Both the position numbers and the translations under genes were made by a program. A stretch of DNA of 40,940 nucleotides from a virus. The stretch is from the IMG/VR virus record IMGVR_UViG_3300042566_000212, positions 1 through 40,940 of that record. One strand, 5' to 3'. Position 1 is the stretch's first letter. Each line of letters starts with the position of its first letter. This document shows positions 28,630-40,590 of the stretch, piece after piece. A model generated the notes under the pieces. That model was not told the DNA's origin. It made no database searches and saw nothing but the letters and a program-made list of their open reading frames with translations.

Positions 28630-28631
28630 AT

Positions 28632-28660
28632 TTGACTTTGTCATACCCATACACTAATCT
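28632..28660 (+). promoter_or_regulatory. Boxed promoter 1 (for 28704)
   Basis: TTGACT, then TTGTC (box variant) at 28638, 12 nt, TAATCT. The leader shares AATAGTAGATAAAGAAA with promoters near 29130, 29713 and 30481. Confidence 0.5.
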
Positions 28661-28703
28661 AATAGTAGATAAAGAAATAGAAATAAAAAGAAAGGAGTTC
28701 CAA

Positions 28704-28814
28704 ATGTTTTCAGTTTGTGAACTATGTGATGTAGTAGTAGAAAAGGTCTTCGTAGAGGAGGCTGACGAGTATGGTTGCGAAATCTGCTGGTCAGAGTATG
28801 GAGAAATCCACTAA
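28704..28814 (+). CDS. 36-residue zinc microprotein
   Basis: Starts MFSVCELCDVV with AAAGGAG upstream. CxxC twice (CELC, CEIC) gives a minimal zinc knuckle. A longer frame opens at 28539 but runs through the composite element and promoter, so the shorter form is chosen. Confidence 0.6.
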   Translation: MFSVCELCDVVVEKVFVEEADEYGCEICWSEYGEIH

Positions 28815-28841
28815 GACAATGTCAGTGGCTCTAGTTATACT
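28813..28841 (+). promoter_or_regulatory. Boxed promoter 2 (for 28886)
   Basis: Box ATGTCAGTGG at 28819, 12 nt after ATGTC, TATACT at 28836. Confidence 0.55.
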
Positions 28842-28875
28842 TATCTTGTTAGTAATCGTTCTAATCAATCAGTAA
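28819..28875 (+). CDS. Tentative 18-residue hydrophobic peptide
   Basis: The box of boxed promoter 2 (ATGTCAGTGG) opens a frame encoding MSVALVILILLVIVLINQ, a near-perfect membrane helix. The ribosome site is weak and the stretch is also the promoter for 28886, so the match may be chance or dual use. Confidence 0.3.
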   Translation: MSVALVILILLVIVLINQ

Positions 28876-28885
28876 AGGAAACCAA

Positions 28886-29044
28886 ATGGGATTTGGATTG
28901 GCTCACATCACTCGTGCTGTAATGGCTAAGGTAGCATTGCGTAATTTTCCTAAGATAAGCGTATTGGCTTGTCAGTCTTGTAATACCCTCGCTGCTGTCA
29001 AGGTATTCAAAGACCACATCGAAATCGTTAGGTGTAAGTGCTAA
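28886..29044 (+). CDS. 52-residue zinc microprotein
   Basis: Basic helical N-terminus (ITRAVMAKVALRNF), CQSC in the middle, CKC at the very end. AAAGGA upstream of the ATG. Unknown function; fits a single zinc site. Confidence 0.6.
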   Translation: MGFGLAHITRAVMAKVALRNFPKISVLACQSCNTLAAVKVFKDHIEIVRCKC

Positions 29045-29103
29045 CGACACGCCCGAGAGAGGCGCACCTCGTTATCAATTTGTTATATATATACGGCGTG
29101 TCG
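29045..29103 (+). repeat. Composite intergenic element 2
   Basis: CGACACGCC at 29045 and its perfect inverse GGCGTGTCG at 29095, with GGCGCACC and a GTTATCAATTTGTTAT word between. Confidence 0.7.
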
Positions 29104-29106
29104 GGC

Positions 29107-29135
29107 TTGACAATGTCGTACCCCTATGCTAGTGT
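29107..29135 (+). promoter_or_regulatory. Boxed promoter 3 (for 29162)
   Basis: TTGACA, box ATGTCGTACC at 29113, TAGTGT at 29130. One of few copies with a consensus -35. Confidence 0.6.
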
Positions 29136-29161
29136 AATAGTAGATAAAGAAAGGAAAGCAA

Positions 29162-29305
29162 ATGATTGCTAAACTAACAAATGGAACTCTTATCCCTCTA
29201 CACTGGGATGACCGCTACTACATTGCTAACTGCCCTGAGTGTAGTGAAGAGGTCTGGGCTAAGACCTCTAACGACATAGCAGAGATTCTAGAAATCCACT
29301 GCTAA
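29162..29305 (+). CDS. 47-residue small protein with CPEC motif
   Basis: Starts MIAKLTNGTLIPLHWDD; CPEC in the middle and a terminal HC could form one zinc site. The stop TAA directly abuts the next box (TAAATGTCAGTGG). No family known. Confidence 0.6.
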   Translation: MIAKLTNGTLIPLHWDDRYYIANCPECSEEVWAKTSNDIAEILEIHC

Positions 29306-29328
29306 ATGTCAGTGGCATAACCTATAAT
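29300..29328 (+). promoter_or_regulatory. Boxed promoter 4 (for 29356)
   Basis: Box ATGTCAGTGG at 29306, TATAAT at 29323; the -35 position holds the previous stop codon. Confidence 0.65.
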
Positions 29329-29355
29329 AAAACTATCAAAAGAAAAGGACATCAA

Positions 29356-29529
29356 ATGAAGGTAACAGTAAACCTACTAGACGGCAAGCAGATTCACCCA
29401 GTATTCGCACCTGACCACACTGAAACAGTAAAGTCATTCTATGCTGACCTATTCACTAAGGGCGAGATTGCTGGCTATGTAATCTTGTTTGACAATGGCA
29501 ATGTGATAGCACAAGGTGAGGTTATCTAA
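29356..29529 (+). CDS. 57-residue hypothetical protein
   Basis: Beta-rich with alternating hydrophobics (MKVTVNLLDGKQI, GYVILFDNGNVIAQGEVI). AAAAGGAC ribosome site. Unknown function. The next gene overlaps by one base. Confidence 0.6.
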   Translation: MKVTVNLLDGKQIHPVFAPDHTETVKSFYADLFTKGEIAGYVILFDNGNVIAQGEVI

Positions 29530-29615
29530 TGGACACACAAGAACTAGAGTACCTTATCGGGCTGTGTGACATAATGCTAATGGATGAAGAGGATCCCTTC
29601 GGTACCCCCCAGTAG
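29529..29615 (+). CDS. 28-residue acidic peptide
   Basis: Frame MDTQELEYLIGLCDIML and eleven more residues, start overlapping the preceding stop (TAATG), so coupled translation is likely. Function unknown. Confidence 0.5.
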   Translation: MDTQELEYLIGLCDIMLMDEEDPFGTPQ

Positions 29616-29686
29616 CGACACGCTCGAAAGGGTGCGCCCCCTGTTACCAAACCGTTATAATTAATTTAGCAAAATACGGCGTGTCG
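29616..29686 (+). repeat. Composite intergenic element 3
   Basis: CGACACGC at 29616, GGTGCGCCCCC, GTTACCAAACCGTTAT, and GGCGTGTCG at 29678; boxed promoter follows. Confidence 0.65.
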
Positions 29687-29689
29687 ATT

Positions 29690-29718
29690 AGGTAAATGTC
29701 GGTAGCCTATGCTAATGT
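29690..29718 (+). promoter_or_regulatory. Boxed promoter 5 (for 29745)
   Basis: Box ATGTCGGTAG at 29696, TAATGT at 29713, leader with AATAGTAGATA. Confidence 0.55.
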
Positions 29719-29744
29719 AAATAGTAGATAGGAAAGGTCAAAGA

Positions 29745-29909
29745 ATGACACTAGAAGAAATGATGAATGACGCAGACGCAAAAGCGTTTCTTGCGGAAAT
29801 GGCAGAACTAGACGCTATGCCACTAATCAAGGGTGGCTACTGCCCACAATGCGAGTGGACTGCTAACAACTGCCACTGCGTAGAGTATGGACTACCACTG
29901 CCAGAGTAA
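29745..29909 (+). CDS. 54-residue zinc microprotein
   Basis: Acidic Met/Ala-rich helical half, then CPQC and CHC in the C-terminal half. GGAAAGG upstream. The stop TAA is part of TAATGTCGG of the next promoter. Confidence 0.6.
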   Translation: MTLEEMMNDADAKAFLAEMAELDAMPLIKGGYCPQCEWTANNCHCVEYGLPLPE

Positions 29910-29931
29910 TGTCGGTGGTATGTGCTAACTT
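29903..29931 (+). promoter_or_regulatory. Boxed promoter 6 (for 29952)
   Basis: Box ATGTCGGTGG at 29909, TAACTT at 29926; box overlaps the previous stop. Confidence 0.55.
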
Positions 29932-29951
29932 ATTCTTAGAAAGGAAATGAA

Positions 29952-30101
29952 ATGACTACATTCACAAACCAAACTCAAAAAGACCGCCGTGCTTACAGCG
30001 ACTATTGGGGAATTGAGATTGCTGATGTCTACTACTGCGACGACTGCGGTTATTGGACACACCTAGACGAAGACGAGTTGCCTATCTGTAAATGTCGGTA
30101 G
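29952..30101 (+). CDS. 49-residue zinc microprotein
   Basis: CDDCGYW and terminal CKCR form a zinc ribbon-like set. The gene reads through the next promoter box: AAATGTCGGTAG encodes its last residues K-C-R and the stop. AAAGGAAATG precedes the start. Confidence 0.6.
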   Translation: MTTFTNQTQKDRRAYSDYWGIEIADVYYCDDCGYWTHLDEDELPICKCR

Positions 30102-30114
30102 GCTACGCTAAAAT
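30086..30114 (+). promoter_or_regulatory. Boxed promoter 7 (for 30141)
   Basis: Box ATGTCGGTAG at 30092, within the end of the preceding gene; TAAAAT at 30109. Confidence 0.6.
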
Positions 30115-30140
30115 AAAACTAACAAAAGAAAGGACAACTA

Positions 30141-30347
30141 ATGTTCAGAGTAACAAACAATGGATACCTAGTGGAATGCTCCACTTGCGGTAACGAGGAG
30201 ATTGCTTCTAATCTCCGTATGGCTAAGTCTGCTTTCGACTTTCACGAATGTTCAGACAAGCCTAACAAGGTGTTTGACTACACTTTGGTTGAGGCTTCTG
30301 ACCCTGTAGAATTGGTCAAGCCTATGTTCTCAACTAGCCTCTACTAG
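30141..30347 (+). CDS. 68-residue hypothetical protein with CSTC motif
   Basis: Starts MFRVTNNGYLVECSTCGNEE; later HEC could complete a zinc site. AAAGGAC upstream. Function unknown. Confidence 0.65.
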   Translation: MFRVTNNGYLVECSTCGNEEIASNLRMAKSAFDFHECSDKPNKVFDYTLVEASDPVELVKPMFSTSLY

Positions 30348-30361
30348 TTTGAGAACCAGGG

Positions 30362-30463
30362 CGACACGCCCGAATGAGGCGCATCGATCGTGCGCCCCCT
30401 GTAGGAAACCTACAAAAAATTGCCTAAAAGTTTGTAACGAAACACCCCTAAAAAGGGTAATAA
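30362..30463 (+). repeat. Composite intergenic element 4
   Basis: CGACACGCC at 30362; hairpin GGCGCA-TCGATCG-TGCGCC at 30378-30396 followed by CCCC. The rest to 30463 is A-rich with CCCC words. Confidence 0.6.
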
Positions 30464-30486
30464 ATGTCAGACCCCCCTGTTACTGT
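30458..30486 (+). promoter_or_regulatory. Boxed promoter 8 (for 30516)
   Basis: Box ATGTCAGACC at 30464, TACTGT at 30481, leader AATAGTAGATAAAAAGAAAGG. Confidence 0.55.
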
Positions 30487-30515
30487 AATAGTAGATAAAA
30501 AGAAAGGAAGTCAAA

Positions 30516-30797
30516 ATGACTGAACTAAAAGTAACAAAGGAAAACTTCGACAAGATTCGTGAAGAAGGAATTGGTAACGGATTCAAAGTTATCAACCCTG
30601 CTGATGGTTACCGCAAGGATAACCGCCTATGGTTTGGAAACTGCTCACTATGCGGTGAGCGTGTAACTAACTCTTCACTAACAGGAAAGGGTTGGGAACA
30701 CGAACTAATCCTAGAAGAAAAACTAAACGAAAATGGGTTTAGGGTTTACTCTCACTCAAGGTTGGTAGACTACTGCCCTGCTCCATACGAAAGTTAG
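30516..30797 (+). CDS. 93-residue hypothetical protein with CSLC motif
   Basis: Starts MTELKVTKENFDKIREEG; CSLC near residue 45 and a Cys at residue 89. The helix-strand layout and WEHELILEEKLNENGF segment suggest a compact fold. AAAGGAAG upstream. No family known. Confidence 0.65.
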   Translation: MTELKVTKENFDKIREEGIGNGFKVINPADGYRKDNRLWFGNCSLCGERVTNSSLTGKGWEHELILEEKLNENGFRVYSHSRLVDYCPAPYES

Positions 30798-30801
30798 GAG
30801 T

Positions 30802-30942
30802 AGGCAAGTCGCCTTGACATACCGCAAAAAATGTGCGCCCCCCGACACGCCCGAGATGCAAATTTCGATCAAATTCACAGGAAAAATTAACCTAATGAAT
30901 TCTTTTGAGAAAATGGCAAAACACCCCCTAAAATGCCTATAA
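30802..30942 (+). repeat. Composite intergenic element 5
   Basis: Begins with hairpin AGGC-AAGTC-GCCT, then GTGCGCCCCCCGACACGCCCGA (core and arm fused); A-rich tail with CCCCC before the promoter. Confidence 0.55.
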
Positions 30943-30965
30943 ATGTCATACCCCTATGCTAATGT
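30937..30965 (+). promoter_or_regulatory. Boxed promoter 9 (for 30992)
   Basis: Box ATGTCATACC at 30943, TAATGT at 30960. Confidence 0.55.
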
Positions 30966-30991
30966 AGTAAGTAAGAAGAAAGGAAAACTAA

Positions 30992-31174
30992 ATGAACAGA
31001 TACCTAAACCCTAGCGAGTTTCTCACTATGTCGCTAACCGAGATTGAGCGTTATCTCGAAACTGCCCTACAACTAGCCGAGGCTAGCGATTGGGACATCA
31101 CGCCAGAGTTTGAGCGTGAATTGACTATGCTCACCAACCTAGCAAAAGCCAAAGGCTCAACTCGCCGTTGGTAA
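30992..31174 (+). CDS. 60-residue helical protein
   Basis: Two amphipathic helices (SLTEIERYLETALQLAEA and FERELTMLTNLAKAKG). AAAGGAAAACTA precedes the ATG. Unknown function; a helical hairpin may bind a partner protein. Confidence 0.65.
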   Translation: MNRYLNPSEFLTMSLTEIERYLETALQLAEASDWDITPEFERELTMLTNLAKAKGSTRRW

Positions 31175-31196
31175 TGTCGGTGGGTAGTTGTAAAAT
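31168..31196 (+). promoter_or_regulatory. Boxed promoter 10 (for 31278)
   Basis: Box ATGTCGGTGG at 31174 overlapping the stop of the previous gene, TAAAAT at 31191. The leader is unusually long, about 80 nt. Confidence 0.6.
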
Positions 31197-31211
31197 AAAA
31201 TAAATGGGAAT

Positions 31212-31253
31212 GAGCCTCAGCAAATAATCCGCAAGGTGAGCCTGAGCAAATAA
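31212..31253 (+). repeat. Direct repeat in a long 5' leader
   Basis: GAGCCTCAGCAAATAA (31212-31227) and GAGCCTGAGCAAATAA (31238-31253), differing at one base, 26 nt apart, between promoter and gene 31278. Possible binding site or remnant of duplication. Confidence 0.6.
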
Positions 31254-31277
31254 GTCCCCGATAGAAAGGAAAACTAA

Positions 31278-31445
31278 ATGTCAATGACAACCTATGATGT
31301 CGCTTGCGACAAATGCGAACGTGGATTCGCAATCGATGATGTGTTCAATGTTGAATACAATGACGGCACGATGAACGTGCTATGCGAAAATTGCGTTGGT
31401 GAAACAATCAAGGCATTCGATGATGTAGCGAGTGTATGGCAGTAA
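31278..31445 (+). CDS. 55-residue zinc ribbon-like protein
   Basis: CDKCERGF and CENC 30 residues apart form a four-cysteine site; acidic overall. AAAGGAAAACTA upstream. Stop shared with the next box (TAATGTC). Confidence 0.65.
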   Translation: MSMTTYDVACDKCERGFAIDDVFNVEYNDGTMNVLCENCVGETIKAFDDVASVWQ

Positions 31446-31467
31446 TGTCATACCCTTATGCTACAAT
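31439..31467 (+). promoter_or_regulatory. Boxed promoter 11 (for 31493)
   Basis: Box ATGTCATACC at 31445, TACAAT at 31462. Confidence 0.6.
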
Positions 31468-31492
31468 CTAACTAACTAAGAAAGGCAAACTA

Positions 31493-31663
31493 ATGAACGA
31501 AAAAATCAACTTGCTAAACCGCAACCTTGCTCGCCACAACATCATCATCGCCCTAATGAACCAAAAGTTAGAGTGTGATGAAACTGAGAAAGAGTGTGAT
31601 GTATGCGTTGGCTTAGACTACGCTATCGAATACGCTCAGGGACAACTAGAACCCGAAAACTAA
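31493..31663 (+). CDS. 56-residue helical protein with three cysteines
   Basis: Helix (NLLNRNLARHNIIIALMN), then CDETEKECDVC and a second helix. Could bind one metal. Ribosome site AAAGGC. The stop abuts the next box. Confidence 0.6.
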   Translation: MNEKINLLNRNLARHNIIIALMNQKLECDETEKECDVCVGLDYAIEYAQGQLEPEN

Positions 31664-31686
31664 ATGTCATAGGGTTGCTGTAAAAT
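31658..31686 (+). promoter_or_regulatory. Boxed promoter 12 (for 31711)
   Basis: Box ATGTCATAGG at 31664, TAAAAT at 31681. Confidence 0.6.
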
Positions 31687-31710
31687 AAAATCAAATGAAA
31701 GGAAAACTAA

Positions 31711-31902
31711 ATGACTAAGTATGAATTGGAATTGCGATTCAAAGAGTTGGCTCTTGACGCTTACAACAAAAACAACGCTGAACCTGTTTCGGCAACTAGC
31801 GTTGGATTCACCGCTTACCTTGAAGCAATTATTTTTGGAATGATTCCAAGAGAAGAGTTTGAATCTTGGATTGAATACTACGAGAGAAAGTTGGCTGAGT
31901 AA
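31711..31902 (+). CDS. 63-residue helical protein
   Basis: Helices ELELRFKELALDAYNKNN and FESWIEYYERKLAE flank a short hydrophobic segment. AAAGGAAAACTAA upstream. It resembles in length and style the product at 32652 (both short, helical). Unknown function. Confidence 0.65.
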   Translation: MTKYELELRFKELALDAYNKNNAEPVSATSVGFTAYLEAIIFGMIPREEFESWIEYYERKLAE

Positions 31903-32022
31903 ATGATGTTCTATAACGGCTTCAATTTGCTAATCGACATTGTGTTAGTTTATTTTGCGTATCGCTTAGGCAAGACTTGGGGATACCGCCAGGGTGAAGC
32001 AGACAACGCTCCGCCATTCTAA
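31903..32022 (+). CDS. 39-residue membrane protein ending PPF
   Basis: Hydrophobic segment FNLLIDIVLVYFAYRLG, then a polar tail ending APPF. The ATGATG start follows the preceding stop directly, so coupling is likely. The 47-residue membrane protein at 33055 has the same QPPF end, which may mark shared ancestry or a partner-binding tail. Confidence 0.55.
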   Translation: MMFYNGFNLLIDIVLVYFAYRLGKTWGYRQGEADNAPPF

Positions 32023-32064
32023 AATCGATCGCCCCACAACCCTTATAAATAAAGGGATGTCGGA

Positions 32065-32147
32065 GGCGTGTGCGCCCCCCTGTGGATAACTCTGTGGATA
32101 ACTAGATCAGATTCGTTATAATTCCGTTATCTAATTTGGGCGTGTCG
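32065..32147 (+). repeat. Composite intergenic element 6 with DnaA boxes
   Basis: GGCGTGTGCGCCCCCC, two DnaA boxes, CGTTATAATTCCGTTAT and GGCGTGTCG at 32139; boxed promoter follows. Confidence 0.65.
32081..32101 (+). promoter_or_regulatory. Two tandem perfect DnaA boxes
   Basis: TGTGGATAA at 32081-32089 and 32093-32101, the complement of consensus TTATCCACA, same orientation, 12-nt period. Suggests host DnaA binding for replication or promoter control. Confidence 0.65.
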
Positions 32148-32150
32148 TGC

Positions 32151-32179
32151 CTATAAATGTCGGTGGTGTGTGTAATAAT
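32151..32179 (+). promoter_or_regulatory. Boxed promoter 13 (for 32206)
   Basis: Box ATGTCGGTGG at 32157; -10 TAATAA at 32173 or AATAAT at 32174. Confidence 0.5.
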
Positions 32180-32205
32180 GAGAGAGTAGAAAGAAAGGCT
32201 AACTA

Positions 32206-32385
32206 ATGAGAAAACCAAGAATGACTAAGAGCGAAAAGGCTTTTGTAGAGCGTGTTTCGTCTATCGTATTCGCTACCCCTGAAATTCGCAACGGACAGCG
32301 ATACCTTGACCGCAAGACTTTTGCCTTGCTCTCACCTGAAACACGAGACCGCTACCTGACCCTGCTAGTGTCTAAGACCCGATAA
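32206..32385 (+). CDS. 59-residue basic protein
   Basis: Starts MRKPRMTKSEKAFVERV; Arg-rich, helical. AAAGGC upstream. Could bind nucleic acid, but no motif proves it. Stop abuts the next box. Confidence 0.65.
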   Translation: MRKPRMTKSEKAFVERVSSIVFATPEIRNGQRYLDRKTFALLSPETRDRYLTLLVSKTR

Positions 32386-32408
32386 ATGTCGGTGGCATAG
32401 GCTAAACT
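32380..32408 (+). promoter_or_regulatory. Boxed promoter 14 (for 32434)
   Basis: Box ATGTCGGTGG at 32386, TAAACT at 32403. Confidence 0.6.
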
Positions 32409-32433
32409 AAAAACAACTAAGAAAGGAAAACTA

Positions 32434-32598
32434 ATGAAACTAATGTGTGTATTTTGCGAGAGCGTGTTCGACGGCAACATTCAGGTTTGCCCTGAGTGTA
32501 ATGACTACAAGGGACTAATGACCCTCGGCAGTGCTATCACTTACCTAGAATTAGACCCTATCGAATGGGCAGACTATCTAGGCGACGGCTACCGCTAA
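32434..32598 (+). CDS. 54-residue zinc ribbon protein
   Basis: CVFCESVF and CPECNDYKG make a clear four-cysteine zinc ribbon in the first half; the second half is acidic helical. AAAGGAAAACTA upstream. Confidence 0.7.
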   Translation: MKLMCVFCESVFDGNIQVCPECNDYKGLMTLGSAITYLELDPIEWADYLGDGYR

Positions 32599-32622
32599 AA
32601 TGTCGGTGGCTACTGATACAAT
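32594..32622 (+). promoter_or_regulatory. Boxed promoter 15 (for 32652)
   Basis: Box ATGTCGGTGG at 32600, TACAAT at 32617. Confidence 0.6.
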
Positions 32623-32651
32623 CTAAATAACTAAGAATAGGAAATAAAAAA

Positions 32652-32861
32652 ATGGAAAACATCGAATACCGCTCCCCTTACTTTAACAACACCGACGCTC
32701 TTCGCAAGGCGTATCAGTTGCTATACCCTAACTATGACTACGATATGATTTCAGTGCTAATCGTAGGTGCTCTGTCTGTCTATGTGCCAGCAGAAAAGTT
32801 TGATGACCTTGTTGCTAGAACAATGTCTGAGGCTACTGCTAAACTTGTAAGCAACAACTAA
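32652..32861 (+). CDS. 69-residue helical hypothetical protein
   Basis: Starts MENIEYRSPYFNNTDAL; three helices suggested (DALRKAYQLLYPNYD, MISVLIVGALSVYV, LVARTMSEATAKLV). Weak ribosome site GGAAATAA. Unknown function. Confidence 0.65.
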   Translation: MENIEYRSPYFNNTDALRKAYQLLYPNYDYDMISVLIVGALSVYVPAEKFDDLVARTMSEATAKLVSNN

Positions 32862-32878
32862 GAAAGGTAAAAACTAAA

Positions 32879-33055
32879 ATGATGACTAGAAAAGACTACA
32901 TCGAAACCGCAAGCATTCTAAATTCAGTTGCTGATGAAATTGACTTCATCACTCTCGCAAACATCGCTGAGAAATTTGCTGAGATGTTTGGCAACGACAA
33001 CCCACGCTTTGACCACGCTAAATTTATTGACGCTGTAATGAAAGAGAGCAACTAG
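32879..33055 (+). CDS. 58-residue helical protein of a common phage small-gene type
   Basis: RKDYIETASILNSVADEID, EKFAEMFGNDNPRFDHAKF. Proteins of this style (RxDYxxxA...NPRFD...F) are common in phages, function unknown. It has no promoter of its own and follows 32861 with AAAGG: second gene of a transcript. Confidence 0.65.
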   Translation: MMTRKDYIETASILNSVADEIDFITLANIAEKFAEMFGNDNPRFDHAKFIDAVMKESN

Positions 33056-33198
33056 TGAACGAACTATTTTTTATTTTCGCAATCTTCGCTTTTGCTAGTT
33101 TGGTAATGGTGCTAAGTCTAACCGCAACCGTTGTTGTGTTGCTAAAAAACATTCGTGAACTAGAAGAAGAAAATCAAGGCTTACAGCCACCATTCTAA
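33055..33198 (+). CDS. 47-residue membrane protein ending PPF
   Basis: GTG start overlapping the previous stop. One long membrane helix (FFIFAIFAFASLVMVLSLTA and on) followed by a charged coil (IRELEEENQG) and QPPF. Topology and end resemble the 39-residue protein at 31903; a phage spanin- or exclusion-like role is possible but unproven. Confidence 0.6.
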   Translation: MNELFFIFAIFAFASLVMVLSLTATVVVLLKNIRELEEENQGLQPPF

Positions 33199-33199
33199 G

Positions 33200-33316
33200 C
33201 GACACGCCAGCCCGATCGACTTGACAAAGTCGTGAGGGTGTGCGCCCCCCCTGATCCAATTCGTTTACGATTGAATTAAGATTTTCCCCGAATTTTTCCC
33301 AAAATTTTTCTTTACA
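33200..33316 (+). repeat. Composite intergenic element 7
   Basis: CGACACGCC at 33200, TTGACAAAGTCG, GGGTGTGCGCCCCCCC, GTTTACGA, then TTTTCCCCGAATTTTTCCC before the promoter. Confidence 0.6.
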
Positions 33317-33339
33317 ATGTCGGTGGGTCTATGTATAAT
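33311..33339 (+). promoter_or_regulatory. Boxed promoter 16, leaderless gene 33346
   Basis: Box ATGTCGGTGG at 33317, TATAAT at 33334, 6 nt to ATG. Confidence 0.65.
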
Positions 33340-33345
33340 TGTCCT

Positions 33346-33540
33346 ATGAATGAAAAAGCACAGGCACTAATCGACGCAATTCTCGCTACCAAGAACGAAT
33401 TGGAAGCAGAGCACTTTAACGGCTCTACCGAAGACGAAAACCCAGACCCTCGCCTAATTGAGATGATGAACAACCTACTCATTTTGGAAGTGTTCTATTT
33501 CCAAGACTACAAGACATTGGTGAATACGCATTTCGCATAA
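33346..33540 (+). CDS. 64-residue acidic helical protein
   Basis: From MNEKAQALIDAILATKNELE; helical with an acidic middle (GSTEDENPDPR). Start at 33346 is 6 nt past the -10, so leaderless. An upstream ATG (33331) lies inside the promoter and is rejected. Confidence 0.65.
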   Translation: MNEKAQALIDAILATKNELEAEHFNGSTEDENPDPRLIEMMNNLLILEVFYFQDYKTLVNTHFA

Positions 33541-33562
33541 TGTCAGTAGTCCCTGCTACAAT
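33534..33562 (+). promoter_or_regulatory. Boxed promoter 17 (for 33588)
   Basis: Box ATGTCAGTAG at 33540 overlapping the stop, TACAAT at 33557. Confidence 0.6.
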
Positions 33563-33587
33563 CGCAACATCAACGAAAGGAAAACCA

Positions 33588-33827: not shown

Positions 33828-33885
33828 GCGGTGCGCCCCCCCCAGGATCGATCTCAATTACGACACACCGAAACAAATCCCCAAA
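33828..33885 (+). repeat. Composite intergenic element 8
   Basis: GGTGCGCCCCCCCC, GATCGATC, ATTACGACAC and AAATCCCCAAA before the promoter. Confidence 0.6.
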
Positions 33886-33908
33886 ATGTCGTAGGTATGG
33901 TGTAAAAT
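33880..33908 (+). promoter_or_regulatory. Boxed promoter 18, leaderless gene 33915
   Basis: Box ATGTCGTAGG at 33886, TAAAAT at 33903, 6 nt to ATG. Confidence 0.6.
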
Positions 33909-33914
33909 AAGACT

Positions 33915-34085
33915 ATGAAGAAAAGAAAGAAGCCACTAAACAAAGTGAATGAAGCCGTTCGCAAGGCACACTCAGCAGAACTATTCCGTTCGCTGATGTT
34001 GTCGCCACACCTAGTAGAAACACCTGCTACTCGCAAGGGTAGCCGTCAGTCTAACAAGCGTAAGGCAATTGCCGAACACCTATAA
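33915..34085 (+). CDS. 56-residue very basic protein
   Basis: Lys/Arg-rich ends (KKRKKPLNK, RKGSRQSNKRKAIAE) around a short helical middle. Likely nucleic acid binding by charge. Leaderless start. Confidence 0.6.
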   Translation: MKKRKKPLNKVNEAVRKAHSAELFRSLMLSPHLVETPATRKGSRQSNKRKAIAEHL

Positions 34086-34107
34086 TGTCGGTGGCACACC
34101 CTATAAT
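34079..34107 (+). promoter_or_regulatory. Boxed promoter 19 (for 34132)
   Basis: Box ATGTCGGTGG at 34085 overlapping the stop, TATAAT at 34102. Drives three overlapping genes. Confidence 0.65.
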
Positions 34108-34131
34108 GTAAGTATCTAAGAAAGGATAACT

Positions 34132-34317: not shown

Positions 34318-34699
34318 CTTTGATAATGTAGAAGTAGCAATTCACTACGCTAAGGGAATTGCTTGGGACACCTGCCACAAAATCTATCTCTTGATGGATG
34401 ATGAGCAAGTAGCAAAAATGCGTGAGTATGGTTATGGCGATGAACCTGACCCCGACAGCCTAATTACCCGAGAGCAGATGACAGCAGATGAAATGCTAGA
34501 AACTGTAAAGAAGTGGTTTGACCAGTCTTGCGGTTTGCGTTTTGTTCAGTCTGTCGAAACTAATCACGAAGACCCGAATGAAGGCTTTATTTCTCTCATT
34601 GGTCAGTTTGAGTATGACGAGTGTGATGACTGTGGCGAAGTTGGATGTCAGGGAGTTTGTAATGACTACGAAGATGAAGAAGACGAGGAAGACAACTAA
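34310..34699 (+). CDS. 129-residue acidic protein with cysteine pair near the end
   Basis: From MTNFDNVEVAIHYAKG. The C-terminal part has CDDCGEVGCQGVC, then an Asp/Glu tail. ATG at 34310 overlaps the previous gene by 8 nt. A zinc site next to an acidic tail; function unknown. Confidence 0.65.
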   Translation: MTNFDNVEVAIHYAKGIAWDTCHKIYLLMDDEQVAKMREYGYGDEPDPDSLITREQMTADEMLETVKKWFDQSCGLRFVQSVETNHEDPNEGFISLIGQFEYDECDDCGEVGCQGVCNDYEDEEDEEDN

Positions 34700-35028
34700 T
34701 GGGAATGTTTAACGCAATGGCAATGACTGAAACTGAAACAACTCTTGAGCAGCAAATCTCTTGGCACCTATCGGGTAATCACTATCCACCAATTCCACAG
34801 GTGATGGTGCCAGTTTGTATTCAGGCAATTGACGCACTAAAAGATGGCGATGCTAATCGTGAGATTCCAATGCCGTTCGATGGCGTAGACAGAAATGGTG
34901 AGCCGTTTCAAATTACTTGGCGTGGACAAACAACCGCACCTGCTTGGGCAATTGCTGAACACGCACACCTTGACGCTTGGCTAATGATTAGCGACGGCGA
35001 CCTTTATTGGGATGAAGAAGACGAGTAG
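34699..35028 (+). CDS. 109-residue hypothetical protein
   Basis: Starts MGMFNAMAMTETETTLEQQI. It contains a beta segment (FDGVDRNGEPFQITWRGQ) and ends DLYWDEEDE. Start overlaps the preceding stop by one base. Unknown. Confidence 0.65.
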   Translation: MGMFNAMAMTETETTLEQQISWHLSGNHYPPIPQVMVPVCIQAIDALKDGDANREIPMPFDGVDRNGEPFQITWRGQTTAPAWAIAEHAHLDAWLMISDGDLYWDEEDE

Positions 35029-35104: not shown

Positions 35105-35133
35105 TTGACAATGTCTGACCCCAATGCTAAAAT
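35105..35133 (+). promoter_or_regulatory. Boxed promoter 20 (for 35159)
   Basis: TTGACA, box ATGTCTGACC at 35111, TAAAAT at 35128. Confidence 0.6.
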
Positions 35134-35158
35134 AGACAAGTAAAGAAAGGCAACCCCA

Positions 35159-35875
35159 ATGCTCATTCGCTCAAAAGACCGTAAGGTCGCTAATCAAGTA
35201 AACAAGTCTGGCACTCAGGCTGCTATGGCTAATACCTTTGGACTGCCTAGCGGTAAGGCTTACTCTTGCCCTGGAGCAACATCGGTATGTGAAACTATCT
35301 GCTACGCTGGCAAACTTGAAAAGGTATTCAAGGGTGTTCGTGAAAACCTAATCAAGAATTGGGAGCAAGTAAAAGACGCTGACTATCTCACTATGTATAA
35401 TCTTATTGACGAGATGATTAGTGAGTTTGTCGCTGAATGTGACAAGCGTAACGCTGAAAAGTTATTCCGCATTCACTGGGACGGTGACTTCTTCAATGTT
35501 GACTACACTAACGCTTGGGCAGATGTTATTCGCAAATACCCTACCGTTCAATTTTGGGCATACACCCGAAGCGATTTTGCTATTCCGCTACTAATCAACA
35601 TCGAAAACCTATCGCTGTATTTCTCAACCGATGAAGCGAACAAGGACTTAGGCTTTGAGTTGAAGCAACAGTATGATGTCAAGTTAGCGTATCTTGCTAA
35701 GGACTTTGCTACTGGTAAGGCAGACTTCAAAACTATTCAAGATAAGTCTGCTATCCCTTGCCCTGAAAACAATCGCAAGTTGCCACTAATCTCAACTAAC
35801 GGCTCTGCTTGTGTTGCTTGCTCGCAGTGTGTTTTTGCTCGCAACGACATTTTATTTAGTGCTAGTAAAAAATAG
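35159..35875 (+). CDS. GP88-like protein
   Basis: 238 residues. FGLPSGKAYSCPGATSVCET, then CYAGKLEKVFKGVRENLIKN and IHWDGDFFNVDYTNAWADV, with CVACSQCVF near the end, match the layout of the actinophage gene product 88 family (cysteine cluster after a LP-x-G-x-x-CPGA motif). The family's function is not established; the cysteines suggest metal or cluster binding. AAAGGCA precedes the ATG. Confidence 0.7.
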   Translation: MLIRSKDRKVANQVNKSGTQAAMANTFGLPSGKAYSCPGATSVCETICYAGKLEKVFKGVRENLIKNWEQVKDADYLTMYNLIDEMISEFVAECDKRNAEKLFRIHWDGDFFNVDYTNAWADVIRKYPTVQFWAYTRSDFAIPLLINIENLSLYFSTDEANKDLGFELKQQYDVKLAYLAKDFATGKADFKTIQDKSAIPCPENNRKLPLISTNGSACVACSQCVFARNDILFSASKK

Positions 35876-35897
35876 GAGAGTATGGGATAATTGATAG

Positions 35898-35960
35898 ATG
35901 GATACATTCATTGGAATAATACTGACCGCAATTCTAATCTGGTTTATCATTAGGCAATAA
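35898..35960 (+). CDS. 20-residue membrane peptide
   Basis: Frame MDTFIGIILTAILIWFIIRQ, one membrane helix with a short basic end. A GATAAT lies 6 nt before the ATG, so leaderless initiation is possible. Too short for certainty. Confidence 0.4.
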   Translation: MDTFIGIILTAILIWFIIRQ

Positions 35961-36058
35961 GCCACCTCGCTACCCTTCGAAAGGAGGGTGGCAGGGCGCA
36001 CGATCTGGATGCGCCCCCTTTTACGACACGAAAAGATTTTTCCCCGAAATGCTTGATA
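35961..36058 (+). repeat. Composite intergenic element 10
   Basis: Stem GCCACC/GGTGGC around CCTT-CGA-AAGG, then GGGCGCA/TGCGCCC hairpin, TTTACGACACG and TTTTTCCCCGAAAT. Confidence 0.65.
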
Positions 36059-36081
36059 ATGTCAGTGGTGTCCTGTAAAAT
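36053..36081 (+). promoter_or_regulatory. Boxed promoter 21 (for 36108)
   Basis: Box ATGTCAGTGG at 36059, TAAAAT at 36076. Confidence 0.65.
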
Positions 36082-36107
36082 AGACACATAACAAAGAAAG
36101 GAAACTA

Positions 36108-36335
36108 ATGGCAATTTTTATCGCAAACGAGAATGGCGATTGGTGGCGTTTTGAGACCAAGCGTTCTCTATTTGTTCTAGACACTGACGACCTACCCGAA
36201 GAGATTGCTAAGGAATGGGGATACCTAGACGAAGAGGGCAACCCTAGCGACGAAGGCGATTGGGCAGACGAAAGCCTTATCTGGGAGTATGGCAGAGAAG
36301 TCCCACAAGACATTCTTCTAGACTACAAGCCATAA
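36108..36335 (+). CDS. 75-residue acidic hypothetical protein
   Basis: Starts MAIFIANENGDWWRFETK, a beta opening, then acidic (DTDDLPEEIAKEWG, GNPSDEGDWADE). AAAGGAAACTA upstream. Unknown. Confidence 0.65.
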   Translation: MAIFIANENGDWWRFETKRSLFVLDTDDLPEEIAKEWGYLDEEGNPSDEGDWADESLIWEYGREVPQDILLDYKP

Positions 36336-36357
36336 TGTCGGTGGCTACCCCTATAAT
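36329..36357 (+). promoter_or_regulatory. Boxed promoter 22 (for 36385)
   Basis: Box ATGTCGGTGG at 36335 overlapping the stop, TATAAT at 36352. Confidence 0.65.
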
Positions 36358-36384
36358 AGATTTATCAAACAAAGAAAGAAGAAA

Positions 36385-36843
36385 ATGAACGAATACGAAA
36401 ACGAATACGGCTCTGTTGAGTTCGACATCACCCCTGCTACTACTGAAAGCACTCACCCTGTTCTTACCAAGTTGTATGAGCAGATTGCTGACCTAACCGC
36501 AAAACTAGACAAGGCAAATGAACTTGATAAAGAGCGTGTCCAGCGTATCAACGATGTGCGTAATGAGAAGTGGAAGTATGAGTCAAAAGTTGAGCAGGTT
36601 CTAAAAGAGGCTTGGGAAGACTACGACCACGACACTATCAAGCACATCGCTAGTGAGTTGGACATTTCTCTAACTATCACTAAGAACTTTGAGGTAAATG
36701 TTCTATTCACCATCGAAGTTGAGTGCGACATTGACGACATTGATAACGGCAACATTGACCCAGAGTGGTTTGAGTATGCTGTGAACGATAGTCAAGTTAG
36801 CGATTACTCAACCGATGTAATCACCTGTAAAGAAATTTCGTAG
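36385..36843 (+). CDS. 152-residue coiled-coil protein
   Basis: A coiled coil at about residues 27-75 (LYEQIADLTAKLDKANELDK) is followed by a beta domain (NVLFTIEVECDIDDIDNGNI). Such helical-plus-beta small proteins occur next to DUF932-type genes in phages but the function is unknown. Confidence 0.65.
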   Translation: MNEYENEYGSVEFDITPATTESTHPVLTKLYEQIADLTAKLDKANELDKERVQRINDVRNEKWKYESKVEQVLKEAWEDYDHDTIKHIASELDISLTITKNFEVNVLFTIEVECDIDDIDNGNIDPEWFEYAVNDSQVSDYSTDVITCKEIS

Positions 36844-36881
36844 GGTTCTTATCCTTTCTTTTCCCCTGCGAAAAACGACCT

Positions 36882-36904
36882 GAGTATGTCTAAGTAAACT
36901 GCTC
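36882..36904 (+). ncRNA. Post-gene hairpin A
   Basis: GAGTA/TGCTC stem (one U-G pair), loop ending TAAAC, 38 nt after a stop codon; one of four similar hairpins (36882, 37339, 37903, 39192). Confidence 0.4.
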
Positions 36905-36984
36905 CCCTTTTGGGTGCGCCCCCCACCACCGACACCAGGATTTTCACGAGATCTTTTTACGACACGCCGTTGGAAATCCCCAAA
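36905..36984 (+). repeat. Composite intergenic element 11
   Basis: GGGTGCGCCCCCC, CCGACACC, TTTTTACGACACGCCG, AAATCCCCAAA. Confidence 0.6.
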
Positions 36985-37007
36985 ATGTCGGTGGTATCCC
37001 TTATACT
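36979..37007 (+). promoter_or_regulatory. Boxed promoter 23
   Basis: Box ATGTCGGTGG at 36985, TATACT at 37002. The nearest gene start is 37158, so the leader would exceed 140 nt and contain a second promoter. Confidence 0.55.
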
Positions 37008-37062
37008 GTTAGTAGTTGGAAATGAGCAAGAAAAAATAATCGAAAAAAGTTTGAGAAAATGC

Positions 37063-37091
37063 TTGACTTACACTCCCAACTGCTGTAAAAT
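37063..37091 (+). promoter_or_regulatory. Sigma70-type promoter without box (for 37158)
   Basis: TTGACT, 17 nt, TAAAAT; the spacer lacks ATGTC. Its leader holds a 12-codon frame (37116-37154) and a GTGTC-GCAA-GACAC hairpin. Confidence 0.6.
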
Positions 37092-37157
37092 AGACTTATC
37101 AACAAATCCGTTGGTATGAAAAATGAAGCGTGTCGCAAGACACAGAAAGGTTAGATT

Positions 37158-37313
37158 ATGTCTAACGCAATCGCACCACAGGTTGGCTCACCATTCACTA
37201 CCGCTGTAAGCAAGGTGTCTGGCATTGTTCAGGAAGTAGTTGCTAACAAGAACGGCACTTTCCGTGTTCGTCTTGATGTAAATGGCACAGACCGCTGGAC
37301 TACCATTCGCTAA
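37158..37313 (+). CDS. 51-residue beta-type small protein
   Basis: Starts MSNAIAPQVGSPFTTAVSKV; strands VQEVVANKNGTFRVRLDVN. AAAGG at 37147. The upstream 12-codon frame MKNEACRKTQKG ends 3 nt before the ATG and could couple translation. Possibly abundant, given a strong promoter. Unknown function. Confidence 0.65.
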   Translation: MSNAIAPQVGSPFTTAVSKVSGIVQEVVANKNGTFRVRLDVNGTDRWTTIR

Positions 37314-37338
37314 CTCGCAGGAGAATAAACTGCTTGCT

Positions 37339-37359
37339 GGGTATCAAGTAAAACTGCCC
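37339..37359 (+). ncRNA. Post-gene hairpin B
   Basis: GGGTA/TGCCC stem, loop TCAAGTAAAAC; member of the four-hairpin family. Confidence 0.4.
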
Positions 37360-37361
37360 AC

Positions 37362-37390
37362 TACTCAATGTCTTACCCCCCTGCTATAAT
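37362..37390 (+). promoter_or_regulatory. Boxed promoter 24 (for 37431)
   Basis: Box ATGTCTTACC at 37368, TATAAT at 37385. Confidence 0.6.
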
Positions 37391-37430
37391 GGACACATAA
37401 CAAACAACCCCTAACAGAAAGAAGACAACT

Positions 37431-37877
37431 ATGGCAAGAGCACTAGCCGTCAAAGTTCCAACCGCATCTCTAATTACTTTGGTAGAAGAGAAGATTGCTA
37501 CTATCAAGGCACAGGTTGCTTCATACCCTGCTGATGTAAAGCAGTATGAGACAGACTACGCTAACTACCAGAAGTCATTGGTAGCATTGGCAATCAAGGC
37601 ACTTACCAACAACCCTGAGTTGATTGGTGATGGCTACGAGAAGCCAATTCGTGTTTCACTTGGATACAACGGAAGCGTTGATGTTCGCCTTGACGCAAAC
37701 GCACTCGGTTTCCCTACCGCACCAAAGAAGCCAAGCGACCCAAACTCGTCTCGCTCATTTGGTCGTGAATACACAACTCCGTTGGAAATGTTAGAGAAGA
37801 CCTTGCGTGTTCTCAAACTGACCGCACAGGAAGAAGTAAATGCTTCGACCTACTCGTCTGTAATGGACTTGCTATAA
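37431..37877 (+). CDS. 148-residue hypothetical protein
   Basis: Long helical N-terminus (SLITLVEEKIATIKAQVA, DYANYQKSLVALAIKALT), then a beta part with VSLGYNGSVDVRLDANALG, a Pro/Ser/Lys loop and a C-terminal helix. No family recognised. AGAAAGAAGACAACT precedes the ATG. It ends 96 nt before a strong terminator. Confidence 0.65.
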   Translation: MARALAVKVPTASLITLVEEKIATIKAQVASYPADVKQYETDYANYQKSLVALAIKALTNNPELIGDGYEKPIRVSLGYNGSVDVRLDANALGFPTAPKKPSDPNSSRSFGREYTTPLEMLEKTLRVLKLTAQEEVNASTYSSVMDLL

Positions 37878-38002
37878 ACCATTGGCGTAAGCCATAACAC
37901 CTGAGCAAGTGTCTAAAAGGCTCTAACCTTGGGCTGGTGTGGCAAGGTGAAAACCACTATGGCTACCAGAGAGACCCCTCCTTGTAATTCGGGAGGGGTT
38001 TT
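37878..38002 (+). ncRNA. Candidate structured RNA or 3' UTR ending in a terminator
   Basis: About 95 nt between stop codon and terminator with several possible helices: TGGC-GTAA-GCCA, GAGC...GCTC (hairpin C at 37903-37923), GCC/ACACC pairing with GGTGTGGC, and CCTTG/CAAGG. No known family is recognised. Confidence 0.35.
37974..38002 (+). terminator. Intrinsic terminator
   Basis: ACCCCTCC/GGAGGGGT stem with 10-nt loop, then TTTTC. The best terminator in the plus-strand region. Confidence 0.8.
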
Positions 38003-38009
38003 CTAGTTG

Positions 38010-38095
38010 CCTGGGGATCGATCGGGTGCGCCCCCCTGGGGGATCGGGCTTTACGAAGGCAATTACGACACGCTCAAAAATTTTCTCAAATAGTA
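38010..38095 (+). repeat. Composite intergenic element 12
   Basis: GGGGATCGATCGGGTGCGCCCCCC, CTTTACGA, ATTACGACACGC, then AAATTTTCTC. Confidence 0.6.
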
Positions 38096-38124
38096 TTGAC
38101 AATGTCGGTGGCTTCCTGTAAAAT
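38096..38124 (+). promoter_or_regulatory. Boxed promoter 25 (for 38164), best match
   Basis: TTGACA, ATGTCGGTGG box at 38102, 17-nt total spacer, TAAAAT at 38119. Confidence 0.75.
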
Positions 38125-38163
38125 AGAACTATCACAAATCCCTACTAATAGAAAGTTGAGACT

Positions 38164-39180
38164 ATGGCTCACGAACTAGAAATTGGAGCAAACGGCGAGA
38201 CCGCTTTTGCTTCACTACGCCAACCTGCTTGGCACAACCTTGGCACTGTATTTGAAGACGAGGTCAATACTGCCGAGATGTTGAAACTCGCACACCTTGA
38301 CAATTGGAATGTTCGCTTGGAAGATGTAGCAATTCCAGACGGCTTTTCAAGCGACAAGTCTTACTCATTCGTATCACGCACTAACCCATTCGACAACTCA
38401 CAGACCGATGTTCTTGGCGTTGTTGGTGAGCGTTATGTTCCGCTACAAAATGAAGACCTATTCTCGTTTGGTGATAACCTACTAGACGGCGGTGGTCGTT
38501 GGGAAACTGCTGGCTCTATTCGTGGCGGTCGTGTTGTATTCGGTTCGATTGCTCTACAAGACAGCATTACCCTAGACCCTAATGGTCGTGCTGACAAGAT
38601 TGACAACTATCTGCTAATCAACACTTCTCACGATGGTTCGATTGCTATTCAGGCAAGTATCACACCTGTTCGTGTTGTATGTGCTAACACTCTCAACCTT
38701 GCTCTATCAAACTTCAAGGGCAAGAAAGATGTCAAGCAAACTTTCAAAATTCGACACACTCAAACTGCCGAGGGTAAGATTGCCGTTGCTCGTGAAGCAT
38801 TGGGACTTGCTCACAAATACATTGACGAATTCTCACTTATGGCTAACGCTATGATTGAAAAGGAAATCACAGACGCTCAGTTTGCTAAGATTGTCGAACT
38901 CGCTTACCCTGCCCCAGAAAAAGATGCTAAGGGTTCGCAAAAGAAATACGACAGCAAGATTGACTTGCTACACGACATTTATGTTGGACAATTCAACAAC
39001 ACCATTTCGGGAACTGCTTGGGGAGCATACAACGCTCTAACCGAACGCTTGGATTGGTATCGCAATTCTCGTGGCGGAAACAACGAAAGCATTTATGCTT
39101 CGGCTTCTGGCTTTGACCCTGTAATCAACGCTGAGAAGAACCGCCTGATGAAGATTGTTCAATCTGTCGTAATGGCATAA
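38164..39180 (+). CDS. DUF932 / phage-plasmid-like TIGR03299 protein
   Basis: 338 residues. AFASLRQPAWHNLGTVFEDE, then GVVGERYVPLQNEDLFSFGD, LLINTSHDGSIAIQASITPV and RVVCANTLNLAL are the hallmark order of DUF932 proteins found in phages and plasmids. The biochemical role is unknown; suggestions in the field centre on DNA metabolism or regulation. It has the strongest boxed promoter here and follows a terminator, so it is its own unit. AGAAAGTTGAG precedes the ATG. Confidence 0.85.
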   Translation: MAHELEIGANGETAFASLRQPAWHNLGTVFEDEVNTAEMLKLAHLDNWNVRLEDVAIPDGFSSDKSYSFVSRTNPFDNSQTDVLGVVGERYVPLQNEDLFSFGDNLLDGGGRWETAGSIRGGRVVFGSIALQDSITLDPNGRADKIDNYLLINTSHDGSIAIQASITPVRVVCANTLNLALSNFKGKKDVKQTFKIRHTQTAEGKIAVAREALGLAHKYIDEFSLMANAMIEKEITDAQFAKIVELAYPAPEKDAKGSQKKYDSKIDLLHDIYVGQFNNTISGTAWGAYNALTERLDWYRNSRGGNNESIYASASGFDPVINAEKNRLMKIVQSVVMA

Positions 39181-39191
39181 TCCATAGACCT

Positions 39192-39212
39192 AGGCAAGTC
39201 TCTAAACTGCCT
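39192..39212 (+). ncRNA. Post-gene hairpin D
   Basis: AGGCA/TGCCT stem, loop AGTCTCTAAAC, 12 nt after the DUF932 stop. Confidence 0.45.
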
Positions 39213-39219
39213 GCCCACC

Positions 39220-39323
39220 AGGGTTGATCGGGGGCGCACCACCTAACATAATATAGACAATCATAAAAAAGTAATTACGAACACCAGATCTTTTTTCCCA
39301 AATCTCGGCGTGTCCTATTTACA
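39220..39323 (+). repeat. Composite intergenic element 13
   Basis: GATCGGGGGCGCACC, ATTACGAACACC, TTTTTTCCCAAAT, GGCGTGTCC; then a promoter. Confidence 0.55.
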
Positions 39324-39346
39324 ATGTCGTAGGGTATCTGTATAAT
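39318..39346 (+). promoter_or_regulatory. Boxed promoter 26 (for the 39375-40581 operon)
   Basis: Box ATGTCGTAGG at 39324, TATAAT at 39341. At least six overlapping genes follow without another boxed promoter. Confidence 0.6.
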
Positions 39347-39374
39347 GGATACATAAACCCCCAAAGGAGAAAAA

Positions 39375-39767
39375 ATGCCAAGACCAGAACGAATCCGTGG
39401 AACTGTCCTACACCTGCTAGACCCAGAGAAGACTACCGAGTTTCTTAAGAATAGACTAAACAACGATACTGTCAAATCAGAGCCTATGGTTGTAGCCAAT
39501 GGCAACAAGGGTATCGCTACTATCTGTGGCGAGGGCGTAGGCTGGTTTGTAGATGACAATGGTGTATTGCCTATCAACTATTATGTAGGTGAGTATGGTA
39601 GTGGCTACCTTGACATTACCCCCGAAGAACTGATGCCTCTAATCTCTACTAAGACTATTGACCTTGCTGATTTTGTGAGGGCATTTGGAGACCGCCTTGA
39701 GAACAACTTTTACCTATGGGTGAACTATGCTAAGGGACACGACCAGACGATTGGAGTTGCAGCGTGA
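39375..39767 (+). CDS. 130-residue hypothetical protein
   Basis: Starts MPRPERIRGTVLHLLDPEK; alpha/beta with VANGNKGIATICGEGVGWFV. AAAGGAG ribosome site. First gene of an operon. Unknown. Confidence 0.65.
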   Translation: MPRPERIRGTVLHLLDPEKTTEFLKNRLNNDTVKSEPMVVANGNKGIATICGEGVGWFVDDNGVLPINYYVGEYGSGYLDITPEELMPLISTKTIDLADFVRAFGDRLENNFYLWVNYAKGHDQTIGVAA

Positions 39768-39871
39768 TTGAGGACTACCGCAAACTACTAGACCTTATAT
39801 TGTCAGAGGGTCTTGCTACAATAGAAGCACTATCAGACGAACAACTAAGAGAGGTAATGGCTGATGAATAA
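39764..39871 (+). CDS. 35-residue helical protein
   Basis: GTG start overlapping the previous stop; two short helices (YRKLLDLILSEGLATI, LSDEQLREVMADE). Tight overlap on both sides supports translation. Confidence 0.55.
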   Translation: MIEDYRKLLDLILSEGLATIEALSDEQLREVMADE

Positions 39872-40064
39872 CCCCACAATGACCAATGAGCAGATTATAG
39901 ATTATCTAATGAAAGACATTCCTGCCTTGCTAGAAGAAAAAGAGCCATTGGACATCAATGATGGCTTTGGTGATTACCTTGAGGGTATCATTACCAGAAG
40001 CCAAACTATCCTACGAATGATGGGTGTTCCAGAAGACCAGATTCCTAGCGATGGTTCTTGCTAA
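39864..40064 (+). CDS. 66-residue helical protein
   Basis: NEQIIDYLMKDIPALLEEKE and TRSQTILRMMGVPEDQIPSD. Overlaps the previous gene by 8 nt. Unknown function. Confidence 0.65.
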   Translation: MNNPTMTNEQIIDYLMKDIPALLEEKEPLDINDGFGDYLEGIITRSQTILRMMGVPEDQIPSDGSC

Positions 40065-40234
40065 TGCTATGTCTAAATACTGAACACGAATCTATCGTAT
40101 GCCCCCGACACGAGGGAGCATTTGACTGTAATCCGTTCTGCGACATTTGCGAGGCAGAGCAAGAGTATTGCCCAACTTGCCAACCATGGGAACACGAACA
40201 AGCAAACAACTATCTAAGGATGATAAATGGGTAA
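40064..40234 (+). CDS. 56-residue cysteine-rich zinc protein
   Basis: Start overlaps the preceding stop. CPRHEGAFDC, CDICEAEQEYC and CPTCQPWEH provide eight Cys/His ligands, enough for two zinc sites. Function unknown. Confidence 0.6.
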   Translation: MLCLNTEHESIVCPRHEGAFDCNPFCDICEAEQEYCPTCQPWEHEQANNYLRMING

Positions 40235-40418
40235 TGTGGTGAGAGTCAGTATTAGTTTTGATTACTATCCTGACGAAGACGAACTAATTCTAGAAAACAA
40301 TTTCACAGAGGAAGAGTTGATTGACTACTATAAGTCTGCTTATGTAGATGACATCTATTCTTTTGTAAAGTATAACGAACTGTATGACGCTGTAAACGTG
40401 GAGGTAATAAATGAATAA
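40227..40418 (+). CDS. 63-residue acidic alpha/beta protein
   Basis: VVRVSISFDYYPDEDE, then EEELIDYYKSAYVDDIYSF. AAGGATG upstream, 8-nt overlap with the previous gene. Unknown. Confidence 0.65.
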   Translation: MGNVVRVSISFDYYPDEDELILENNFTEEELIDYYKSAYVDDIYSFVKYNELYDAVNVEVINE

Positions 40419-40581
40419 CTATGTAGATGAAGACACTATCGCAGAGTATCTAGTAGAATACCAGGGCTTAGAGACTGCTATCGCTACCCTGGAGGAACGC
40501 CAGGCGACGATCGATTTGATTCTACGCCACGAACACAATTTCGCAATTGGCAAAGACCGACTAATCAATGTCGGTGGGTAA
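40411..40581 (+). CDS. 56-residue helical protein whose end encodes a promoter box
   Basis: Helix DTIAEYLVEYQGLETAIATL and on to LILRHEHNF. The last codons AAT-GTC-GGT-GGG-TAA are the box of promoter 27. GGAGG near 40400 serves as ribosome site. Confidence 0.6.
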   Translation: MNNYVDEDTIAEYLVEYQGLETAIATLEERQATIDLILRHEHNFAIGKDRLINVGG

Positions 40582-40590
40582 GGATACAAT
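40562..40590 (+). promoter_or_regulatory. Boxed promoter 27, leaderless gene 40597
   Basis: Box ATGTCGGTGG at 40568 inside the preceding gene, TACAAT at 40585, 6 nt to ATG. Confidence 0.6.

Follow-up and report, generated by a model that had tools for sequence, protein, structure and literature searches.

Late promoters of phage P1 (Lpa) combine a good -10 and no -35 with a phage element, an inverted repeat, at about -22. Cluster A mycobacteriophages carry stoperators, repressor sites that occur in many asymmetric copies and are not tied to a -10, and the repressors of these phages act at many sites. The WhiA motif GACAC sits upstream of the -35, and the known contacts of Wbl proteins lie there as well. 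Wbl proteins bind region 4 of sigma-A (PMC10245118). In the middle promoters of phage T4, a box near -30 replaces the -35 and is located 12 +/- 1 bp from the -10, with a TGn in about half of the promoters (PMC2988021).

We analyzed an IMG/VR record of 40,940 bases, referred to here as the window, which is probably a fragment of a larger phage genome and whose hosts are probably freshwater actinobacteria. It contains an array of promoters with an ATGTC box that share with T4 middle promoters a host -10, the lack of a -35, an asymmetric box near -30, a 12-bp spacing and the service of many small genes. The extended -10 TGn is present in 12 of 28 window sites, compared with about half of those in T4. 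The two classes differ in the box itself (wwwTGCTTtA for MotA and AATGTC-R-G-W-SS here), in the actinobacterial host, and in the distance from box to -10, which is stricter here. The original prediction had likened the array to MotA-type promoters. This comparison is borne out by the architecture but not by the box sequence, and no Pfam MotA or AsiA family was found among the 91 small proteins of the scanned near-complete relative G001, although distant homologues could escape such a search. By analogy, it is plausible that the box promoters work like T4 middle promoters, and they may represent a new form of activator-dependent phage promoter with T4-like architecture.

As in P1 late promoters, a good -10 is present without a -35, but the ATGTC box is not palindromic, unlike the P1 element. 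Stoperators have the letters TGTC and GGTGG in common with the box, but the order of these parts differs; moreover, stoperators are free of the -10, whereas every box site here is a promoter at fixed phase. WhiB-like activators bind sigma-A region 4 and one is encoded by the phages that carry the box, but such proteins are also found in box-less phages. Little is known about gene timing in lytic actinobacterial phages, and functions have yet to be assigned to most of these early genes. The hundreds of natural variants of this promoter class offer a direct route to its regulator and to the coexpressed genes. If an unrelated activator converged on the geometry of T4 middle promoters, this would show how readily the contact between sigma and the -35 is taken over.

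An array of box promoters at fixed phase

The plus strand of positions 28638-40590 holds 28 exact [AT]TGTC-N12-TAnnnT sites, and a 29th at 32157 (+) has its -10 shifted by one base, so that the 12-nt spacing applies to 28/29 sites. Shuffling positions 28601-40940 300 times with dinucleotides preserved yielded a mean of 0.33 sites and a maximum of 3, and the minus strand of the whole window contains two. When box-to--10 spacings from 4 to 29 were compared, none besides 12 exceeded 8 sites. The median distance from a box promoter to the downstream gene start is 49 nt. The fixed-phase box put forward in the original prediction was recovered, including its off-by-one promoter 13 (32157). Its count of 27 rose to 29, however, and where it listed a single TTGTC we counted two (28638 and 39800). 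Four promoters that it had set apart as lacking the box, at 21133, 26239, 28183, and 37063, do lack it. The 29 sites are best explained as one promoter class that serves the small genes clustered in the early region of the phage. They are listed below together with one of the contrasting promoters.

28638..28660, +, box promoter 1: TTGTC, TAATCT; TTGACT at -35; first of the array
28819..28841, +, box promoter 2: ATGTC, TATACT
29113..29135, +, box promoter 3: ATGTC, TAGTGT; with TTGACA
29306..29328, +, box promoter 4: ATGTC, TATAAT
29696..29718, +, box promoter 5: ATGTC, TAATGT
29909..29931, +, box promoter 6: ATGTC, TAACTT
30092..30114, +, box promoter 7: ATGTC, TAAAAT
30464..30486, +, box promoter 8: ATGTC-AGACC variant, TACTGT
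30943..30965, +, box promoter 9: ATGTC-ATACC variant, TAATGT
31174..31196, +, box promoter 10: ATGTCGGTGG, TAAAAT
31445..31467, +, box promoter 11: ATGTC-ATACC variant, TACAAT
31664..31686, +, box promoter 12: ATGTC, TAAAAT
32157..32179, +, box promoter 13: ATGTCGGTGG, -10 displaced by one base
32386..32408, +, box promoter 14: ATGTCGGTGG, TAAACT
32600..32622, +, box promoter 15: ATGTCGGTGG, TACAAT
32823..32845, +, box promoter 16: ATGTC, TAAACT
33317..33339, +, box promoter 17: ATGTCGGTGG, TATAAT
33540..33562, +, box promoter 18: ATGTC, TACAAT
33886..33908, +, box promoter 19: ATGTCGTAGG, TAAAAT
34085..34107, +, box promoter 20: ATGTCGGTGG, TATAAT
35111..35133, +, box promoter 21: ATGTC, TAAAAT; with TTGACA; precedes GP88-family gene
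36059..36081, +, box promoter 22: ATGTC, TAAAAT
36335..36357, +, box promoter 23: ATGTCGGTGG, TATAAT
36985..37007, +, box promoter 24: ATGTCGGTGG, TATACT
37368..37390, +, box promoter 25: ATGTC-TTACC variant, TATAAT
38102..38124, +, box promoter 26: ATGTCGGTGG, TAAAAT; with TTGACA; precedes DUF932 gene
39324..39346, +, box promoter 27: ATGTCGTAGG, TATAAT
39800..39822, +, box promoter 28: TTGTC, TACAAT; within a gene
40568..40590, +, box promoter 29: ATGTCGGTGG, TACAAT
37063..37092, +, contrast promoter without box: ordinary TTGACT...TAAAAT

The core of the box in the window is AATGTC, followed in most cases by RGTGG or by a five-base variant with CC at its end, such as ATACC. The GGTGG continuation that had been proposed is present, but merely as one of several, [AG]GTGG or [TG]ACCC-type sequences being usual. 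At the -35 position of 28 window sites, TTGAC matched in full in four and at 4/5 positions in three, with about 0.5 expected by chance for both together; the remaining 21/28 match at three or fewer positions and count as lacking it.

A collection of 796 distinct sites was obtained from 80 loci, with TGTC, GG or CC, and TAnnnT fixed by selection. Among the freely varying columns, AA before TGTC, the G at the sixth position, and A and A of the -10 are conserved, as is the unselected T(-1)A(+1) at the start. The -35 hexamer, likewise unselected, hardly departs from background (T.37, T.29, G.20, A.40), and the -10 is host-like, resembling TAnAAT. With the conserved A as +1, ATGTC occupies -29 to -25 and is followed by the downstream half at -24 to -20, and the consensus, wAAATGTC-R-G-W-(GG or CC), spans about -31 to -20. 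Promoter-like sites without a -35 more often have the extended -10 TG (48% versus 34%, P = 0.004) and A at the start of the box (80% versus 62%, P = 3e-5), which would be expected if the elements sum to promoter strength; the loci share ancestry, so that site counts and P values are not independent and the P values are indicative only. Box positions 5 to 9 of the 796 sites have GG or CC at one place with linked changes before it (GTGG, TAGG, GACC, and TACC). Some phages use one form nearly exclusively, with G002 having mostly CC and G012 mostly AGTGG.

Conservation and distribution of the box among phages

The portal of the window is 47-49% identical to those of Streptomyces phages, and a second gene also served for phage placement.

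38164..39180, +, DUF932 protein gene: 55% identity to Streptomyces phage Navo gp2

Wherever a record names a family, the Streptomyces phages matching the portal and the DUF932 protein are Stanwilliamsviridae, and the replication proteins of the window's relatives match Navo. Judged by the similarity of portal, DUF932, and replication proteins to their counterparts in Streptomyces BE-type phages, the window belongs with Stanwilliamsviridae.

The box promoter class is real and strongly conserved. Of the 404 DUF932 relatives detected among viral contigs, 80 were kept. When 5-mers were counted by their distance upstream of TAnnnT-like hexamers, with no motif supplied, ATGTC at 12 or overlapping words emerged de novo in most of 79 related loci. 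A matrix built from the window sites alone gave 10-30 matches in each of nine near-complete relatives, compared with 0-5 in reversed sequence, and in most of the nine nearly all matches clustered in a single block of a single strand, roughly 50 nt ahead of gene starts. The original prediction would have fallen had related genomes conserved the box to no greater degree than the sequence around it; it withstood this test. A scan of viral contigs by DNA pattern returned at least 56 loci that each have four or more sites on the same strand, and among those listed nearly all share proteins with the window's phage family. Five contigs (L157, L158, L177, L198, and L199) were discarded as box-less relatives, because their DUF932 gene lies near the contig end and an array would be off the contig. 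Among papers on actinophage promoter motifs, a search that fell short of most subscription literature found none on the ATGTC box.

The box is also carried by G013, G015, and G018 of a second phage group, and the 102-kb G427 of that group has several box-like sites, which are fewer and weaker. G013 and G018 have portal, terminase, and major head proteins of other families than the window's relatives do. The terminase of G018 is 77% identical to that of lake phage DSL-LC01, from which the box array is absent, and 12 further second-group contigs contain the GG form 0-7 times. Use of the box therefore varies within the group. DSL-LC01 (L333, OQ999401.1) has a different array at 22607-43303 (+), where CTAAAGATG-T-TATA[AG]T occurs in 17 copies and in none on the other strand. 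These CTAAAGATG copies stand before small genes, usually with GATT ahead and with no obvious -35.

In five Boydwoodruffvirinae-type Streptomyces phages, the corresponding small-gene promoters read TTG, then TGTCCC, then TAGACT, and the start A is invariant in 58/58 aligned promoters. TGTC lies 12 nt before the -10 in 11/67 distinct promoters of the Streptomyces relatives, compared with 0-2 at the other spacings tested. The box is probably ancestral in the subfamily and weaker in Streptomyces hosts, where TTG is kept. A degenerate box in culturable Streptomyces phages makes the idea testable at the bench.

Proposed mechanism and alternatives

Recurrence of the box in phage relatives but not in sampled hosts suggests a switch, made by the virus, that diverts host RNA polymerase. 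We infer activation, a phage-encoded factor, its timing, and any remodeling of sigma. The box would mostly stand in for the -35 element, and transcription would start at the A seven bases downstream of the host-type -10. That a phage-encoded activator reads the box and substitutes for the contact between sigma-A and the -35 has, in our estimate, a probability of roughly 0.58. This DNA-binding protein would recognize the box beside or on region 4 of sigma-A in host RNA polymerase and, like MotA in T4 middle promoters, stand in for the -35 contact. A helper protein may occupy or remodel sigma-A region 4, and the conserved phage Wbl is a candidate for this role.

The box might instead be an operator, at which a phage repressor bound in the spacer would silence all of the promoters at once, during lysogeny or in the late phase of infection. 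The multiple copies of a single asymmetric site within the RNA polymerase footprint would suit a repressor, as would the -35-like sequence kept in about a quarter of sites, which is needless if an activator replaces the -35 and therefore counts against the activator. However, a repressor does not need an exact fixed distance to the -10, and loss of the -35 in most promoters would be left unexplained. In addition, an extended -10 is commoner where the -35 is weaker, and the number of TTGAC promoters per phage locus falls as that of box promoters rises (Spearman -0.46). Based on the exact spacing, the missing -35s, the reliance on the extended -10, and this correlation, an activator fits better than a repressor, and we consider the operator unlikely.

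Recognition by a host transcription factor, or a preference of the host polymerase, that the phages exploit would agree with the presence of the box in two phage groups whose portal and capsid proteins are not related. It would also agree with the location of the Streptomyces small-gene block near the genome end, where transcription before phage proteins is possible. Nevertheless, a looser pattern matched only at 12 isolated places in an even sample of 395 Actinomycetes genomes, with no genome above two, and a scan of GTDB contigs yielded 46 single matches from scattered phyla, none of them an array; both scans covered the GTGG form of the box only, and the sampled genomes may not include the true hosts. 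Within that form and those genomes, these counts argue against a host regulon with the box consensus. DSL-LC01, with its closely related terminase, also does without the box, and we find recognition by the host improbable. An identical AATGTCGGTGGTCGAACATATAAT is located just before ATG in Spirillospora albida and Actinomadura harenae (L282 and L299), where it overlaps a possible LexA-like site.

A phage alternative sigma factor recognizing box and -10 together, which the original prediction had allowed, would account for the fixed spacing and could be sought in sigma region 4-like HTH matches of some second-group phages or, as weak matches, of a 50-residue HTH protein, but it is very improbable, as no Sigma70_r2 domain was found at E 0.1 in 18 phage records, 12 nt is shorter than the sigma-70 spacing, the -10 is host-like, and the second-group HTH protein also occurs in box-less Microbacterium phages.

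For the preferred phage-encoded activator, several candidates were considered. In G001, Pfam at E 0.001 returned 23 families, with WhiB as the sole transcription factor. Wbl is present in all 12 large relatives and in three Streptomyces relatives; it was rejected as the box-specific factor and is not sufficient, since it is also present in box-less DSL-LC01 and A3Wally. A MerR-like HTH protein (phrog_9440) occurs in nine near-complete relatives and is annotated so in several Streptomyces phages, but it was dropped as a universal factor because it was not detected in second-group records, including G427; its AlphaFold model was too poor for use (pLDDT 39). The 50-residue HTH protein is present in all nine relatives and in Navo and was not found in second-group records. 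The second-group protein with two HTHs was set aside for its occurrence in the Microbacterium phages, and the WhiA motif was rejected as the box on account of its position. One further gene lies inside the array.

34699..35028, +, small acidic early protein gene: homologous proteins on numerous contigs with the box, in both phage groups

Its product of about 100 residues has an HYPPVP motif (alignment A2) and a confident predicted fold (pLDDT 88), but it was not retained as a regulator, having matched no PDB fold at E < 1. None of the candidates examined was linked to the box. A wider proposal, that two phage groups share a middle-promoter system resembling sigma appropriation but independent of T4, with its own box and activator and perhaps with Wbl as partner of sigma-A region 4, is offered tentatively and may well not hold.

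Other short sequences recur between the operons. GGCGTGTCG and its reverse complement were found at 28621, 29095, 29678, and 32139 (+) and at 29053, 30370, 30851, 33208, and 36968 (-). Five promoters have a GTGTC located 14-15 nt ahead of the box (28624, 29098, 29681, 32142, and 39310). GTGCGCCCCC occurs ten times between array operons (window 29632-38035 and 35053, 39239), eight times on the plus strand and twice on the minus strand.
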